Of a DNA stretch of 31,004 bases, positions 9,781-27,485 are shown piece by piece (position 1 is the stretch's first letter; every line of letters begins with the position of its first letter). Under the pieces are notes generated by a model that did not search any database, had not been told where the DNA came from, and saw nothing but the letters and a program-made list of their open reading frames with translations. The stretch comes from a virus. The translations under genes were made by a program, and so were the position numbers. Where the stretch lies: the IMG/VR virus record IMGVR_UViG_3300042876_000613, positions 1 to 31,004 of that record; one strand, 5' to 3'.

Positions 9781-9996
9781 ATGCAGATCACATGCGGCTG
9801 CGGCCATACCGACAAATTCGATGCATTTTGTCATACCACCCTCAGCGGCTGCTTGCCGCCCGGTCAGTTCCAATGCCCTGGGTGCGGGGACGCCTGGCAA
9901 AGAAAAGAATCGGAGTATCGCATCATCCGCGCCGGATCAGAGGCGATGATCATACCGGGCCGGGTCGATATCGTATCGATTGAGCGGCGTCTGTAG
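9781..9996 (+). CDS. small protein with a zinc-ribbon-like cysteine pattern
   Basis: 71 residues with CGCGH near the N-terminus and CPGCGDAW around residue 36, a spacing compatible with a single zinc ribbon. The rest is short beta-like sequence ending IIPGRVDIVSIERRL. It starts with ATG after a CGGGAG site just downstream of the hairpin. A frame at 9756-9983 overlaps it but lacks a plausible composition. Function unknown. Confidence 0.65.
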   Translation: MQITCGCGHTDKFDAFCHTTLSGCLPPGQFQCPGCGDAWQRKESEYRIIRAGSEAMIIPGRVDIVSIERRL

Positions 9997-10020
9997 TCAA
10001 AATCAGAGGAATTAAACCGC

Positions 10021-10302
10021 GTGCAAAACAAGACGAAAAAACAAAAAAAACAGACAAAACGCACGCAGTACATGTGCGCCAAAATGCTGCGCTGGATCCG
10101 TAAGGATATGAAATACGAGCCACGAGATATGTGTGATCAGTTCGAACTGCCGCGCCGGACCTATCAGGATTATGAAGCTGGCAAAAGGGGCATTCCGGCC
10201 AAACTGGCTTTGCTGATCCGTGAGCAGCACAAACACGATCGGGAATGGATAAACGGCATCGGTGACCGCGTCGACGCGGCTGAAAGAGGGAAAAAGGGAT
10301 GA
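10021..10302 (+). CDS. small basic XRE-like helix-turn-helix protein
   Basis: 93 residues from a GTG with AGAGGA upstream; an in-frame ATG at 10072 is the alternative start. The N-terminus is a lysine/glutamine stretch. Residues 36-65 (MCDQFELPRRTYQDYEAGKR then GIPAKLALLIREQ) read as the last four helices of a Cro/CI-type helix-turn-helix. Likely a small transcription factor. It overlaps the next gene by ATGA. Confidence 0.7.
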   Translation: MQNKTKKQKKQTKRTQYMCAKMLRWIRKDMKYEPRDMCDQFELPRRTYQDYEAGKRGIPAKLALLIREQHKHDREWINGIGDRVDAAERGKKG

Positions 10303-15803: not shown

Positions 15804-15851
15804 TGAGCGCTGGTTGTGACAGCGAATACCCATTCACAAGGAGATAGCGAG

Positions 15852-16175
15852 ATGAAATCCATTAAATTTAGGGCGTGGGACAAACCAGGATTGTTTATGA
15901 CCGATCCGTTTTTTCTCGGTTCACTGAACGCAGGGGATGGGTTTGACTCGGATTGGGAGATAATGCTTTTTACTGGAGTGACAGATCAAACCGGGAAGGA
16001 AATTTTTGAAGGGGACATTATCCGCATTGAAAATCACATTTCACCGGTTTTTTTTGATCCTCATAGGGGGTGTTGGTCAGTTTTGAAAAACGATATGCAG
16101 TGCGCTTTGTACGTGCAGCTTCCGGCAGAAATAATCGGTAATATTTACGAAAACCCTGAATTGCTGACCAAGTAA
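15852..16175 (+). CDS. YopX-family phage protein
   Basis: 107 residues from ATG 15852, which has AAGGAGA 8 bases upstream; the frame is open further up but without a ribosome site. The family pattern is clear: IKFRAWDKPG at the start, IMLFTGVTDQTGKEIFEGDI in the middle, then a WSVL strand and EIIGNIYENPELL at the end. YopX proteins are common in phages and prophages; they form a beta-rich multimer, and their role is not known. Confidence 0.92.
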   Translation: MKSIKFRAWDKPGLFMTDPFFLGSLNAGDGFDSDWEIMLFTGVTDQTGKEIFEGDIIRIENHISPVFFDPHRGCWSVLKNDMQCALYVQLPAEIIGNIYENPELLTK

Positions 16176-21553: not shown

Positions 21554-23092
21554 ATGAGCAAAGGTATCTGGGTTAGCCCGACACAGTTCGCGGAATTTTC
21601 CGATTCCAACACCATCGACAAATCGGCTCTGACCGAAGAAATTGCTTCCCGCCAAGCTGCCTGGGACTGGACCGGTTTCATGGGACTGCTGCCCGATCCC
21701 GACCCGATTCTGCGCAAGCTGGGCAACGGTGCCGAGATCCTGGAGAGCCTGACCGCCGACGGCCATCTGTGCAGCGTCATTCAGTCCCGCAAACTTGGCA
21801 CCCTTAAAAAAGAGTTTAACTGGCAGCCGGGTACCATCACCGAAGAAAAGGCGAGCAGTCAGGCAAAGCGGCTCAGTGATCAGCTGACAGAAGACCTGGA
21901 ACGGGTCGATCTGTACAACCTGGTCTCGGGGATACTCGACGCACCTTATTACGGCATGGCCCCTATTGAGATCAAATGGCAGCCCGGCGATGGCCGCCTC
22001 CGCATCGTCGATCTGGAAGTCAAGCCCGCACGTTGGTTCGGCTTCAATGATAAAAACGAGCCCCGTTTCGTCAGTACGCAAAACATGTGGGATGGCCAGG
22101 AACTCCCTTTCGGCAAGTTCGTCATCGCCCGCCACTTTCCTACCTATGACAACCCCTATGGCCTGCGCTTGCTCTCCCGCTGCTTCTGGCCGGTGGCCTT
22201 CAAAAAAGGCGGCATTAAGTATTGGGTCACCTTGGCGGAAAAATACGGCATGCCGTTCCTGCTTGGTCAGTACCGCCCCGGAGCGCCCGCGACTGAACAA
22301 CAGGAAATGCTCTCCAAGCTGGTCGGTATGGTGCGCGATGCCTGCGCCGTCATTCCCCAGGGCGGTACTGTGCAAATTCTGGAGTCGGGCAAGGGCACCT
22401 CCACAGCCGAGATCCATTCCGGCCTCAAATCGGCAATGGATGCCGAGATGTCCAAGGTCATCATGGGGCAGACCCTGACCGCCGAGGTCAGCGACAAGGG
22501 TGGCAGCCGTGCCCAGGGACAGGTCCACGAGGATATCCTGGAAGACTTCCGCCAGGGAGACCAAACCCTGGTCAAAACCGTCATGGAAGAAATCGCCTGG
22601 CTCTATGGCCAGGTCAATGCTCCCGGTGTACCAACACCCAAGTTTACCTGGTTCGAAGAGGATAACCCCAATACCGAGACCGCCACCCGCGATAAAACTC
22701 TCAAAGAGACCGGGGTCAAGTTCCGCAAGAGCTACTACACGCGCACCTATCGCCTGCAGGAAGATGACTTCGACCTGGAGGGAGAGCCGCAGCCTCCTCC
22801 GGAAGACAAGACATCGAATGCCGAGTTTGCCGAAAAAACCGCGCCCGAATTCACCCCTGCCCAGCAGAGCATCGAAGGGCTGAAAAAAGCCGCTACTCAG
22901 GACTGGCAGCCGATGATGGACCCGCTGCTTAACCCGGTGCTCGACATCATTCACGGCTCCAACAGCTATGAGGAAGCGCTTGCGCGTCTGGCCGACGCCT
23001 ACGACAGCATGGATGAAACAGCCCTGGCCGAAGTACTGGCACAGGCATGTTTTGCCGCCCAGACGGTCGGTCGTATCGACAGCACACCGTGA
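21554..23092 (+). CDS. portal protein (Mu gp29-like, DUF935)
   Basis: 512 residues, the normal length. Family segments visible: WDWTGFMGLLPDPDPILRKL, SAQKRLSDQL-like linker, APYYGMAPIEIKWQPGDGRL, then GQTLTAEVSDKGGSRAQGQV and HEDILEDFRQGDQTLVKTVM, which correspond to the well-conserved GQTLT...GSxAxxxVHxxV region. The portal forms the dodecameric ring through which DNA passes. It begins 1 base after the terminase stop and overlaps the next gene by GTGA. Confidence 0.94.
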   Translation: MSKGIWVSPTQFAEFSDSNTIDKSALTEEIASRQAAWDWTGFMGLLPDPDPILRKLGNGAEILESLTADGHLCSVIQSRKLGTLKKEFNWQPGTITEEKASSQAKRLSDQLTEDLERVDLYNLVSGILDAPYYGMAPIEIKWQPGDGRLRIVDLEVKPARWFGFNDKNEPRFVSTQNMWDGQELPFGKFVIARHFPTYDNPYGLRLLSRCFWPVAFKKGGIKYWVTLAEKYGMPFLLGQYRPGAPATEQQEMLSKLVGMVRDACAVIPQGGTVQILESGKGTSTAEIHSGLKSAMDAEMSKVIMGQTLTAEVSDKGGSRAQGQVHEDILEDFRQGDQTLVKTVMEEIAWLYGQVNAPGVPTPKFTWFEEDNPNTETATRDKTLKETGVKFRKSYYTRTYRLQEDDFDLEGEPQPPPEDKTSNAEFAEKTAPEFTPAQQSIEGLKKAATQDWQPMMDPLLNPVLDIIHGSNSYEEALARLADAYDSMDETALAEVLAQACFAAQTVGRIDSTP

Positions 23093-23907
23093 TTGATCAC
23101 TCTCTCGACATAGTCTCTCTGCCTCCGGAGCAGGCCATTGCCTGGTTCAAAGCCAAGGGCTTTCAGTTCTCCTGGGACTGGCAGGATATGTGGCAGGAAG
23201 TGCATGTCAGTAAATTTACCGTGGCCAAGGTCACCAAGGCCGATATTCTCCAGGATATATTTGACGCCCTGAGCAAGGCACAGACCGAAGGCACAACCTT
23301 CGAACAGTTCAAGAAGGATCTGATACCACTGCTCCAGCAAAAGGGATGGTGGGGTAAGCAGGACGCCGTCAACGTCACTACCGGTGAAATTCGGGAAGGT
23401 GTTCAACTCGGTTCCCCGCGTCGCCTGCAAACCATCTTCAACGTCAACGTTCAGACCTCGCTCCAGGTCGGCCACTATCAGACCATGACTGATCCGGATG
23501 TACTGAAAGCCCGGCCATACTGGCGTTACTCTGCTGTGATGGATGGCAAAACGCGGCCCATGCACAAGGTGTGGCACAACATGCTACTCCCCGCCGACTC
23601 TATCTGGTGGGACACCCATTATCCGCCCAACGGCTGGAACTGCCGCTGCACGGTGGTATCGATGTCGATGCGCGAAATCACGCGGGACGGTCTACGCATA
23701 TCAGATATGCCAGCTACCAACCTGCGCCCCTGGACCAACCCGAAAACAGGCGTAATCCTGTACGTTCCCGAGGGGATCGATCCAGGATGGGCATACAACC
23801 CCGGTAAAGATCCTGTCGGCCATGCCCTGGCCGTAGCCAAGGACAGCGCCTCCGGAATGCACCCGCAGATTGCGTGGAAACTGATGAACGATCTGGGAGA
23901 AGCATAA
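23089..23907 (+). CDS. head morphogenesis / minor head protein (Mu gpF-like, SPP1 gp7 family)
   Basis: 272 residues from GTG 23089, which overlaps the portal stop; an ATG at 23047 would add 14 residues that look like portal shadow. The start LPPEQAIAWFKAKGFQFSWD is typical of gpF. The family motif is complete: YSAVMDGKTRPMHKVWHNML, then IWWDTHYPPNGWNCRCTVVS. The protein acts inside the early prohead, near the portal. Start choice is uncertain because neither start has a strong ribosome site. Confidence 0.92.
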   Translation: MIDHSLDIVSLPPEQAIAWFKAKGFQFSWDWQDMWQEVHVSKFTVAKVTKADILQDIFDALSKAQTEGTTFEQFKKDLIPLLQQKGWWGKQDAVNVTTGEIREGVQLGSPRRLQTIFNVNVQTSLQVGHYQTMTDPDVLKARPYWRYSAVMDGKTRPMHKVWHNMLLPADSIWWDTHYPPNGWNCRCTVVSMSMREITRDGLRISDMPATNLRPWTNPKTGVILYVPEGIDPGWAYNPGKDPVGHALAVAKDSASGMHPQIAWKLMNDLGEA

Positions 23908-23910
23908 ACC

Positions 23911-24480
23911 ATGTCAGGGTTTGCGATCAGGCTCGACATACAGGATGGCCAGGCAAAGGCGATTGTCGTTGACCTCCGGCAGCGGGGTGAAAATACCACC
24001 CCGGTCATGAAGATCATCGGCGAGATTGGCCGAACCTCGATTGTCAAAAACTTTGAATCAGAGGGGCGGCCTACTCCCTGGAAGAAGTCAAAGCGGGCGC
24101 TGAAGGATGGCGGCCTCACCCTCACCAAAAGCCGCCGCTTGGCAAAATCAATTGTATCGAAATCGAGCCGGGATAACGTCGATATCGGCACCAACGTGGT
24201 CTATGCCCGCATTCACAATCAGGGCGGCGACATCAAATCCCCGGCCCGCGAGCGGGCGCTACGCTTTGGTGGTATTCATCCGGCGAGGATGGGAGAGAAC
24301 AGTGTCGGGCCTGGGCGTCCGACAAGAAGTTTCGCCAGTAAAAGGAATGCACAATTCGGAATGCGCGTCCAAGGCAAGGCCTATATCATCCGCATGCCCA
24401 AACGTGAGTTCATGCTGCTGCAGCCGGAAGATTGGATCGAGATCCGCGACGCTTTGACGGAATACCTGGCAGGGAGGTAA
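23911..24480 (+). CDS. virion morphogenesis protein (Mu gpG-like)
   Basis: 189 residues. NFESEGRPTPWKKSKRALKD followed by a short TLTKSRRLAKSIV segment and VVYARIHNQGG is the conserved part of the phage virion morphogenesis family (gpG of Mu, related to P2 gpS tail completion). The C-terminal part is IRMPKREFMLLQPEDWIEIR. It probably acts in head-tail joining. Three bases after gpF, and followed by a hairpin. Confidence 0.9.
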   Translation: MSGFAIRLDIQDGQAKAIVVDLRQRGENTTPVMKIIGEIGRTSIVKNFESEGRPTPWKKSKRALKDGGLTLTKSRRLAKSIVSKSSRDNVDIGTNVVYARIHNQGGDIKSPARERALRFGGIHPARMGENSVGPGRPTRSFASKRNAQFGMRVQGKAYIIRMPKREFMLLQPEDWIEIRDALTEYLAGR

Positions 24481-24491
24481 CCCCTCCCCCG

Positions 24492-24512
24492 CCTCCCCTT
24501 AATCAGGGGAGG
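24492..24512 (+). terminator. hairpin after gpG, possible terminator
   Basis: CCTCCCCT (24492-24499) pairs with AGGGGAGG (24505-24512), 5-base loop, followed by AGCTTATTCTTTC, a weak T-rich stretch. Similar CCTCC/GGAGG hairpins lie at 27852 and 30399. Confidence 0.5.
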
Positions 24513-24623
24513 AGCTTATTCTTTCAAATTTGCCCTGTGAGCGCTGCAAGGTTCAAAACGGCACTGACCCTCGCGGGCAACTCCGTTCGCGGCACACGCG
24601 GAAAGTTAAAGACAGTTTTAAGA

Positions 24624-24643
24624 CGGTTGTGATTATACAACCG
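24624..24643. promoter_or_regulatory. inverted repeat upstream of the Acb2-like gene, possible operator
   Basis: CGGTTGT (24624-24630) and ACAACCG (24637-24643) flank GATTAT, giving a 20-base dyad whose centre carries a TTATAC that could be a -10. It lies 28 bases before the GTG start. The surrounding 24513-24671 region is otherwise without recognisable genes. Could equally be a short hairpin. Confidence 0.35.
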
Positions 24644-24671: not shown

Positions 24672-24920
24672 GTGACAAAAGATACCATTGAAAACAACTT
24701 CCGCTATCACAAACCACAAGAAGGGCAGCCTGAAAAATATGAAGCAATTCGGGAAAAAGCCAAAGAGCTGGCATACCTGTTGGCTGATCTGTGTCCGGTC
24801 AGCCGTGAAAAGTCATTGGCCATAACCAACCTGGAACAATCTGTAATGTGGGCGAATGCTTCTATTGCACGTAATTACATGCCGAAGAGTAACAGTCCTG
24901 ATATCAATCCTGTTGAATAA
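24672..24920 (+). CDS. acb2: Acb2-like protein (Acb2/Tad1 hairpin domain), probable anti-CBASS
   Basis: 82 residues from a GTG start (GAAAGGAA upstream). The whole length fits the Acb2 hairpin domain as I remember it: NFRYHKP (9-15), a YEAIREKAKELAYLLADLCP helix (23-42), SREKSLAITNLE (44-55) and MWANASIARN (59-68). Acb2 proteins form hexamers that sequester cyclic di- and trinucleotides and so block CBASS immunity. Transposable Pseudomonas phages such as JBD67 carry acb2 within the structural genes, as here. Nucleotide-binding residues were not checked by alignment. Confidence 0.78.
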   Translation: MTKDTIENNFRYHKPQEGQPEKYEAIREKAKELAYLLADLCPVSREKSLAITNLEQSVMWANASIARNYMPKSNSPDINPVE

Positions 24921-24958: not shown

Positions 24959-24986
24959 AAAACAAACCACAACACCTCCCCCACTG

Positions 24987-25023
24987 CGCCCTTCTCCTTT
25001 TTTGGAGAGGGGCGTTTCTTTTT
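24987..25023 (+). terminator. intrinsic terminator, second late-control module
   Basis: CGCCCTTCTCC (24987-24997) pairs with GGAGAGGGGCG (25004-25014), one wobble, 6-T loop, followed by TTTCTTTTT (25015-25023). It separates the lysis/packaging/Acb2 unit from the head genes. Confidence 0.85.
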
Positions 25024-25068: not shown

Positions 25069-25084
25069 CATCAAGGAGATGGCT

Positions 25085-25957
25085 ATGGATAACTGGATTG
25101 AGATTTTCAAGGCTGGCACGCACATCGACAGCAAAGGGCGAAAACGCACCTGGACTACGGATGATCTGGACAAGATGGTTGCCAAGTATAACCCGTCCGA
25201 CCATGAAGCTCCGGCGGTGATCGGCCATCCAAAAGACAATCACCCCGCCTACGGCTGGGCCTCTGAACTCAAGAGGGTGGGCGATAAGCTCATGGCAAAA
25301 TTCAAACAGGTAGTCCCCGAATTTTCCGCCATGGTGGAACAAGGAATGTTCAAAAAGCGCAGCATCCGGGTGCTTCCTGACGGTTCGCTCGGTCATGTTG
25401 GTTTCTTAGGCGCGGTCCCCCCGGCAATCAAGGGGTTGAAGGATATAGAGTTTGCCCAGGATGAAGAAAGTTTCGATTACGACTACAGCGAGGAGGAAGG
25501 ACAAATGGACGCAAGGGTAAAAGAGTTAGAGGATCAGCTGGTCGCTGAAAAGCAGAAGACGACCAAACTGGAAACGGAGCGCAACGATTTCAAGAGCAAG
25601 GCTGAAAAAACTGAGGCCGACTTTTCCGAGGCACAGAAAAAAGGCCGGCACAAGGAGATTGCCGATTTTGTTGAGGCCGGGATCAAGGCCGGCAAGATTC
25701 TCCCCTCATGGAAGAACCAGGGGATGGTCGATTTCATGACGGCGCTGGATGACCAGGGAGGCGAATACGAGTTTTCCGAGGGTAAGAAACAAAGTTCACT
25801 CGACTGGTTCAAGAACTTTATTTCCGACTTCAGCTCACATCCGTTGTTTAAGGAGATGGTCAAGCCGGAGAATGAGGGTGACCAGAAAAACGCCGATTTC
25901 GCCGCCGACGAGAAATTGGCAGAAGAGATGGTCTCATACGTGTCGCCGTCAAAGTAA
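25085..25957 (+). CDS. head maturation protease with C-terminal scaffold (Mu gpI-like)
   Basis: 290 residues from ATG 25085, six bases after AGGAG; the ATG at 25079 overlaps the ribosome site. The protease part (1-~125) has AGTHIDSKGRKRTWTTDDLD, HEAPAVIGHPKDNHPAYGWA, FKKRSIRVLPDG and GHVGFLGAVPPAIKGL, all hallmarks of the Mu I protease. Residues ~140-190 are a charged coiled coil (VKELEDQLVAEKQKTTKLET), the scaffold part. It guides prohead assembly and then cleaves head proteins. First gene after the second late module. Confidence 0.93.
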   Translation: MDNWIEIFKAGTHIDSKGRKRTWTTDDLDKMVAKYNPSDHEAPAVIGHPKDNHPAYGWASELKRVGDKLMAKFKQVVPEFSAMVEQGMFKKRSIRVLPDGSLGHVGFLGAVPPAIKGLKDIEFAQDEESFDYDYSEEEGQMDARVKELEDQLVAEKQKTTKLETERNDFKSKAEKTEADFSEAQKKGRHKEIADFVEAGIKAGKILPSWKNQGMVDFMTALDDQGGEYEFSEGKKQSSLDWFKNFISDFSSHPLFKEMVKPENEGDQKNADFAADEKLAEEMVSYVSPSK

Positions 25958-25988: not shown

Positions 25989-26321
25989 ATGACAGAATAC
26001 GAACTGCTTCAAAAAGCCCTTATCGCCGCCGGAAACCCCGTCCGCAAAAAGGTAACAATCGCAGCCGGGACCGATCTCGTTGCCGGTACCATTGTCGGGC
26101 GCATTACTGCCGGGCGCAAGTTTAAACGGTCACTCATCGGCGATGCCGACGACGGTTCGCGTACTCCTGTCGCCGTGCTGCTCGAAGATGCTCCGGCTGC
26201 CTCGGCTGATGTCGAAGCGGTCATCGGCTTGGGAGGCGGAGCCTACGCCAGGGATAACATGACAGGGCTTACCGAAGCGGCTGAAGACACCCTGGAAGGT
26301 CGCGGCATCTATTTCATTTAA
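25989..26321 (+). CDS. head decoration protein (lambda gpD-like)
   Basis: 110 residues. Family pattern: VTIAAGTDLVAGTIVGRITA at the start, then DDGSRTPVAVLLEDAPAASA and a GGGAYARDNM strand. Decoration proteins form trimers on the capsid surface at three-fold axes and stabilise the expanded head. AGGAGG precedes the ATG; it lies between protease and capsid genes as in related phages. Confidence 0.88.
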   Translation: MTEYELLQKALIAAGNPVRKKVTIAAGTDLVAGTIVGRITAGRKFKRSLIGDADDGSRTPVAVLLEDAPAASADVEAVIGLGGGAYARDNMTGLTEAAEDTLEGRGIYFI

Positions 26322-26363
26322 CCGCAATTTAACTGAGTCAAATACATGAAGGAGGATTATTTT

Positions 26364-27485
26364 ATGAAGCGTTTTTCAACATTGTTCACCTGGCTGGGAC
26401 TGATTCTTCTGGCCGCAGTTTTCTCCCCACACGTCGCAATGGCCACAGCATTGGACACAGGTGCCGCCCCGGCGTTTCTTGTTGCCGGTATTGTCTCTCT
26501 CGACCAAATCTTTAAGGTCCGCGTCCTCACCATTGCCATTAACAAGATGCGCCCCTTTACCACCCGTGCTCTCGACCTGGTCTTTAGCCGTAAGAAAGGC
26601 CAGCTTTCCAGCCTGTTCGCCTGGGATATCAAATCGAGCAACGAGCGACTCCTGAAAAATATCCGCGTTTCCGACGCCGCCCAGGTTACCAACGGAGTCA
26701 AACGCAAAACCGTTACCTGTGAAGCACCAAGATTTGCCGAAAAACGCTTTATCGGTGCCGACAAGCTCGATGCCGCCCGCAAGGCCGGTGAGCAGGGTGT
26801 GGAACTGATGAAAGAGAAAATCGCCGATGAACAGTTCGATATGCGCGGCGACGTTGACCGCACCCGTGAATTCATGGCGGTCAAGTGTCTCTCCGGCCAG
26901 GTAGTCGATGAGAGCGGTGCCGTCATCGTCGATTACAATTTCCCTGCCGGGCAGAAACCGGTTCTTGCAGCAGGTTCTAAATGGTCTGAAGGTGGTACTG
27001 ACCCGCTTGTCAATCTGCGTGCCTGGAAAAAGTATATTGGTGCTCGCGTCGGCGTTGACAAATTTGTTGCCATCTGTGGTTCAGACGCCATGGACGCGCT
27101 GATCGGTAACGAGTCGGTTGGTGACAAGCTCAAGTATGCCGCCGGTAAACAGATTGCCGAAGAGGGGCGTATCGCGTTTCTGGCCGGTATCCAGATCGAC
27201 GAGTACTTCGGTACCTATAAGGATGCCAATGGCGTGCTCCAGGACATGGTGCCCGCCAATGCCTTCATTCTGATCGGTATCGGTCCTGACACGGCTGCCG
27301 AGCTGTATGCACCGGTTGTGGACCTGGACGATGAAGCTGGTGTCGGCTCGGGCAAAGATCCAAACATTTTCTTCTCTAAAGCCTGGGAAGAAAAAGATCC
27401 TTCCGGCAGGTGGGTCAAAGTTGAATCCCGTCCGCTGCCGGTTCTGTTCCAGCCCGAGTGCATCATCTACGCAACTGTCTGCTAA
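26364..27485 (+). CDS. major capsid protein (lambda gpE / Phage_cap_E type) with N-terminal signal-like sequence
   Basis: 373 residues from ATG 26364, the start with a GAAGGAGG site at the right distance (26346 overlaps it). From about residue 47 it follows the capsid E family: VSLDQIFKVRVLTIAINKMR, the ALDLVFSRKK loop, APRFAEKRFIGADKLDAARK, WKKYIGARVGVDKFVAICGS, and a late VESRPLPVLFQPECIIYATV. The first 27 residues read MKRFSTLFTWLGLILLAAVF and on to VAMA, a classical Sec signal peptide with cleavage site. That is not normal for a capsid protein. No start codon lies between residue 26 (Met of AMA) and the capsid domain. Confidence 0.92.
   Translation: MKRFSTLFTWLGLILLAAVFSPHVAMATALDTGAAPAFLVAGIVSLDQIFKVRVLTIAINKMRPFTTRALDLVFSRKKGQLSSLFAWDIKSSNERLLKNIRVSDAAQVTNGVKRKTVTCEAPRFAEKRFIGADKLDAARKAGEQGVELMKEKIADEQFDMRGDVDRTREFMAVKCLSGQVVDESGAVIVDYNFPAGQKPVLAAGSKWSEGGTDPLVNLRAWKKYIGARVGVDKFVAICGSDAMDALIGNESVGDKLKYAAGKQIAEEGRIAFLAGIQIDEYFGTYKDANGVLQDMVPANAFILIGIGPDTAAELYAPVVDLDDEAGVGSGKDPNIFFSKAWEEKDPSGRWVKVESRPLPVLFQPECIIYATVC

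Follow-up and report, generated by a model that had tools for sequence, protein, structure and literature searches.

The 82-codon open reading frame that lies between the gpG-like gene and the head maturation protease gene of a Mu-like phage is, judged from its profile matches, a true representative of the established Acb2 family, and its product is very probably an Acb2-type cyclic-nucleotide sponge. Membership of this family is not in itself new, and the significance of the gene (acb2 hereafter) lies mainly in the recurrent slot that it occupies among the head genes.

The window, that is, the whole stretch of DNA analysed, is the IMG/VR virus record IMGVR_UViG_3300042876_000613 (31,004 bases). 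Its gene order is that of a Mu-like phage, with a Mu-type transposase and a MuB-like ATPase, a late activator (phrog_532) and a terminase, followed by Portal_Mu, Phage_Mu_F, gpG (PF05069), the acb2 reading frame, the protease, the decoration protein, capsid protein E and gp36. The reading frame was found exactly where the first-pass annotation had placed it, with the PF05069 and phrog_976 genes on either side (Table 1), and carries an AAAGGA motif directly 5' of its GTG start codon. At the left end of the window, positions 94-327 and 1088-1501 resemble host DNA by eye (a membrane protein fragment and a response regulator) and lie outside the phage repressor; this host-like end suggests a prophage whose left end is near 1.4-1.5 kb. 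A YopX-family protein (15816-16175; PF09643, 6.4e-17) is encoded in the accessory stretch that separates the late activator from the lysis genes.

Table 1. Features in and around the gpG-protease slot of the window
Feature	Positions	Strand	Evidence
gpG-like virion morphogenesis / neck protein	23911..24480	+	PF05069, phrog_26
Weak hairpin after gpG, poor T tract	24492..24512	+	z -2.0
Conserved element rTTTAAA-n4/5-GTTTTAA-n3-GGTT, at the place of the Mu late promoter P_I	24602..24630	+	matrix score
Dyad CGGTTGT-GATTAT-ACAACCG	24624..24643	+	z -3.3
acb2 homolog, 82 aa, GTG start	24672..24920	+	PF24729, PHROG_1454, AF2 model, Y12
Terminator-like hairpin with T-rich tail, between acb2 and protease	24986..25015	+	-24.5 kcal/mol, z -4.7
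Mu I-like head maturation protease	25079..25957	+	phrog_976
Decoration protein and major capsid protein E, same head operon	25989..27485	+	PF02924, PF03864

Family assignment and predicted fold

The first-pass annotation had recognized an Acb2 pattern in the product and proposed a search with the Acb2/Tad1 hairpin profile, which bore it out: the match to Pfam PF24729 reached 84.6 bits against a cut-off of 27 (E 5.5e-24) and covered profile positions 2-58 of 58, and PHROG_1454 was matched with an E-value of 9.4e-30. The positive controls T4 Vs.4 (71.4 bits), PaP2 gp26 (66.1 bits) and the JBD67 protein encoded at 22985-23311 (59.6 bits) scored in the same range, and the Acb2 proteins of T4, PaP2 and JBD67 or their close kin have been studied experimentally (PMC12657218, PMC10419184, PMC11722364, PMC13083879). 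No usable match for the product was obtained in NCBIfam or PADLOC, the phmmer match against the PDB was too weak on its own, and in the A1-A3 profile comparison the aligned part comprised the 27 C-terminal columns only.

The AlphaFold2 single-chain prediction, run with 51 relatives, gave three helices (residues 3-10, 19-40 and 45-67) and no strands, with a mean pLDDT of 85 that rises to 97-98 in the hairpin. This is the topology of the published Acb2 protomer, which is built from one short and two long antiparallel helices, Tad1 having in addition an N-terminal beta sheet (PMC12043709), so the predicted fold too came out as the first reading of the sequence had anticipated. The best Foldseek match of the model was T4 Vs.4 with cGAMP (7uq2; probability 0.96, E-value 0.43). 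In the structure comparison with VIA-align, helical hairpins matched many unrelated folds at similar Z. As such hairpins are common and the significance is low, the matches of both programs are taken as support only.

Residues were mapped from HMM alignments because MAFFT had misaligned the JBD67 Acb2. Arg27, nearly invariant in the 51 relatives, aligns gap-free with T4 Lys23 and provides a basic residue at the T4 Lys23/PaP2 Lys26 place; PaP2 Lys26 is a ligand contact. Tyr12 aligns gap-free with T4 Tyr8 and is invariant across the 51 relatives. In T4 the Y8A substitution disrupts cyclic-dinucleotide binding, and the F82C variant fails to activate Panoptes (PMC12657218). The place of T4 Phe82, which stacks on the ligand, is taken by an alanine in the acb2 product, as it is in PaP2 and JBD67. 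It is on the PF24729 match, the AlphaFold2 layout and the invariant tyrosine that the assignment as a putative Acb2-type sponge is based.

Relatives, host and presumed target

By tblastn, relatives of the product were found in 328 phage records, for the most part from phages of Mycobacterium, Paenibacillus and Gordonia, at 98 places in IMG/VR and at 26 places in bacterial genomes, nearly all of them Bacillota; members of the phrog_1454 branch are up to 86% identical over 63 aa. The median dN/dS over 161 pairs of relatives was about 0.10, a value that places this branch under purifying selection and that, together with the 328 phage records and the PF24729 and PHROG_1454 matches (E-values above), marks the reading frame as other than a chance one. 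Acb2 homologs had already been annotated in Microbacterium phages (PMC13348362) and cluster E mycobacteriophages (PMC11953737). The step outside Pseudomonas, presented as a novelty in the first-pass annotation, was therefore already known, T4 Vs.4 and the 328 records being further instances. In the Paenibacillus phage records KT361654.1 and NC_055029.1 members of the branch go under the name phosphomannomutase, which is apparently an error. A homolog about 70% identical was seen in a Geobacteraceae MAG (L103, ~9980-10207), flanked by a nitrate-reductase-like/cytochrome gene pair on one side and by purine-biosynthesis genes on the other, with no evident prophage around it. The tree of the 64-column protein, in which the window did not group with the Geobacteraceae copy, lacked the resolution needed to identify a donor.

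The contexts of these relatives bear on the possibility that the product serves the head operon as a small structural or assembly factor and has only the hairpin fold in common with Acb2. The location of the gene inside that operon and the commonness of helical hairpins would agree with such a role, which is nevertheless highly improbable: the sequence-family match is strong and goes beyond fold alone, the gene is missing from relatives of the phage whose head genes are intact, and its own relatives occur in unrelated surroundings, for instance with a sigma factor and HicAB as neighbours in Paenibacillus phage Bob, or after the portal gene of Gordonia phage Gray.

The major capsid protein of the window is 85% identical to one in genome G010, which belongs to the same order as a Geobacteraceae MAG and also contains a head module syntenic with that of the window; from both, the host of the phage is probably a member of the Geobacterales. 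Matches to SMODS CD-NTases were found in 12 of 141 Geobacterales genomes (11 over the cut-off) and a PF24729 protein in three of the 141. One of the CD-NTases adjoins a SLATT_4 2TM effector, forming a minimal CBASS operon. Therefore the presumed target exists in the presumed host order, at the level of the order. The search for SAVED in four genomes gave no match, nor did it in the controls. In the Geobacterales genome G055 (L152, 4119-7126) a CD-NTase gene lies directly beside a BrxL gene.

A chief target other than CBASS, either the gcADPR signal of Thoeris in the manner of Tad1 or the cA3 of type III CRISPR systems, is improbable. The Pfam model does span both families, the SRExxxAxTxxExxxMWxN part of the product can be aligned with chains of Tad1, and, in Acb2 and Tad1 alike, cyclic trinucleotides are bound (PMC12043709). 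However, the product consists of the hairpin and a short N-terminal helix only, with neither the N-terminal beta domain nor the loops of Tad1, and CBASS cyclases occur in the host order.

The gpG-protease slot and expression of acb2

No PF24729 match was seen in eight relatives of the phage, some of which are fragments, and GC3 of acb2 is 0.43 vs 0.61-0.67 in the gpG, protease and capsid genes. Thus acb2 is an accessory gene and probably a recent horizontal acquisition. In the Pseudomonas phage JBD30 the same gpG/neck-protease slot is occupied by acrF1 and a winged helix-turn-helix gene (aca1), and the acr genes of D3112-like phages are located in an accessory region of low GC content (PMC4378225). 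An acr-aca locus was considered for the window, where slot and accessory status fit, but no aca-like gene was found in its gpG-protease slot, and the likeness was classed as one of slot only. A divergent acb2, 34-36% identical, occupies the same slot in a Mu-like prophage of a different lineage in another Geobacterales genome (G057), where its end overlaps the start of the protease gene. On the viral contig L023 (3674-3943) an acb2 with a C-terminal extension is separated by only a few bases from the Mu-like I protease gene that follows it.

In a survey of more than 40 gpG-protease pairs the slot was mostly empty and sometimes held other reading frames; acb2 is therefore not its typical cargo, and the slot is better described as a variable site than as a dedicated acb2 site. 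A 72-aa reading frame in the slot of L111 appeared Acb2-like by eye and was rejected, as it lacks a Pfam match and extends across the conserved promoter element described below. Related helix-turn-helix-like reading frames of about 107 aa, with no Pfam match, fill the slot in L199 (343-666) and L202 (2463-2789); these are possible regulators or counter-defence genes. The wider reading, that Mu-like phages of distant bacterial groups generally use the slot behind the P_I-like promoter as an anti-defence site, with the sponge heading the capsid operon, is put forward tentatively, from the acr genes in Pseudomonas and the at least two occurrences of acb2 in Geobacterales. If it is true, the antidote would be made together with the likely trigger of CBASS, and the unknown reading frames in the slot would become candidate counter-defence genes.

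Upstream of the protease gene, at least 12 relatives keep a conserved element of 27-29 bases (about AAATTTAAAGAnTGTTTTAAnnCGGTT), at the place where, in Mu, gene I is preceded by a C-dependent late promoter (PMC4461284). Relatives with the element between gpG and protease include L109, L110, L111, L113, L126, L207, L215, L230, L201 and L226. A matrix built from four relatives, with the window copy left out, gave 31 bits for the element in the window (next best match, 12 bits); outside the matrix, L207, L215, L230 and L201 scored 42.5, 33.7, 30.6 and 30.1 bits, respectively, the best score in 30 shuffles of each being at most 10 bits, and L226 was also positive. The element is probably a late promoter of its own sequence class. 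As acb2 stands between it and the head protease, with its start codon about 42 nt downstream, transcription most likely takes place late, with acb2 leading the head and major-capsid operon; late expression with the head proteins is thus regarded as moderately probable, and on the simplest view acb2 came to lie there by insertion between the promoter and the protease gene. The hairpin downstream of acb2, a convincing intrinsic-terminator candidate, may partly uncouple acb2 from the protease and attenuate this arrangement.

The first-pass annotation had suggested that acb2 may be expressed apart from the structural genes, naming an upstream dyad and one terminator-like hairpin on each side. All three exist, the downstream hairpin being strong and the one after gpG weak. 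Early expression from a promoter of its own, with the dyad as operator in the manner of acr-aca loci, is rather unlikely; it concerns expression only, and it would account for the dyad, for the flanking hairpins and for the acr genes that share the slot with a helix-turn-helix gene in JBD30. However, no sigma-70-like match was found upstream of acb2 on the + strand, the gene lies directly behind the element kept at the P_I position of the head operon, and no aca gene is present. The dyad, whose left arm overlaps the end of the conserved element, was not found in the relatives, and the overlap with the protease gene in the second prophage also speaks against separate expression.

Built on the family, the predicted fold, the conserved binding tyrosine, the purifying selection, the accessory status and the position of the gene, an explanation that we hold to be highly probable is an Acb2-type sponge encoded in an accessory cassette between the P_I-like element and the head protease. 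The small helical-hairpin protein would assemble, presumably into a homo-hexamer, and bind, without degrading them, cyclic di- and/or trinucleotides from host CD-NTases, so that CBASS effectors would be kept off during lytic growth. The cassette, probably acquired horizontally, follows the P_I-like late promoter element and would be transcribed late, ahead of the other genes of the operon. What speaks against simple co-transcription with the head genes is the terminator-like hairpin that follows acb2. Mutations in capsid genes help acb2-deleted phage to escape CBASS, according to a review (PMC10419184); making the sponge just before the capsid would therefore be sensible, an idea of timing in which the sponge comes first and the capsid next.

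Comparison with known systems

With the putative sponge described here, Mu-like phages of Geobacterales would join the carriers of nucleotide sponges. The Acb2 proteins of T4 (Vs.4), PaP2, PaMx33 and JBD67 agree with the acb2 product in Pfam family and size class as well as in predicted fold and the binding tyrosine, and acb2 of JBD67 is likewise found among head genes, where it closely follows that of the major head protein and is not in the gpG-protease slot. Identity to these proteins is low, however (about 20%), and the product carries the signature SREKSLAxTNLExxVMWANxSIAR, which is that of the Bacillota/actinobacterial branch; its two helices are joined by a short loop instead of the long insert, and it differs from T4 in having alanine at the Phe82 position. 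It is thus far from the biochemically studied Acb2s and near a large Bacillota-phage branch that is recorded as hypothetical protein or misnamed phosphomannomutase. Members of the phrog_1454 branch from Paenibacillus, Halolactibacillus, Gordonia and Mycobacterium phages are similar in length and show the high identity given above, whereas the window gene belongs to a Mu-like phage of a different bacterial phylum and its product is extended at the C terminus by about 14 residues. The C-terminal hairpin of PF24729 is common to Tad1 and the acb2 product, and the N-terminal antiparallel beta-sheet domain of Tad1 is missing from the 82-residue, all-helical model. The acrF1-aca1 locus of the D3112-like phage JBD30 agrees in slot and in low GC (PMC4378225) and differs in its cargo and in the aca regulator, which is absent from the window; this locus and the second, independent acb2 in the slot together offer a positional rule for finding counter-defence genes of Mu-like phages.
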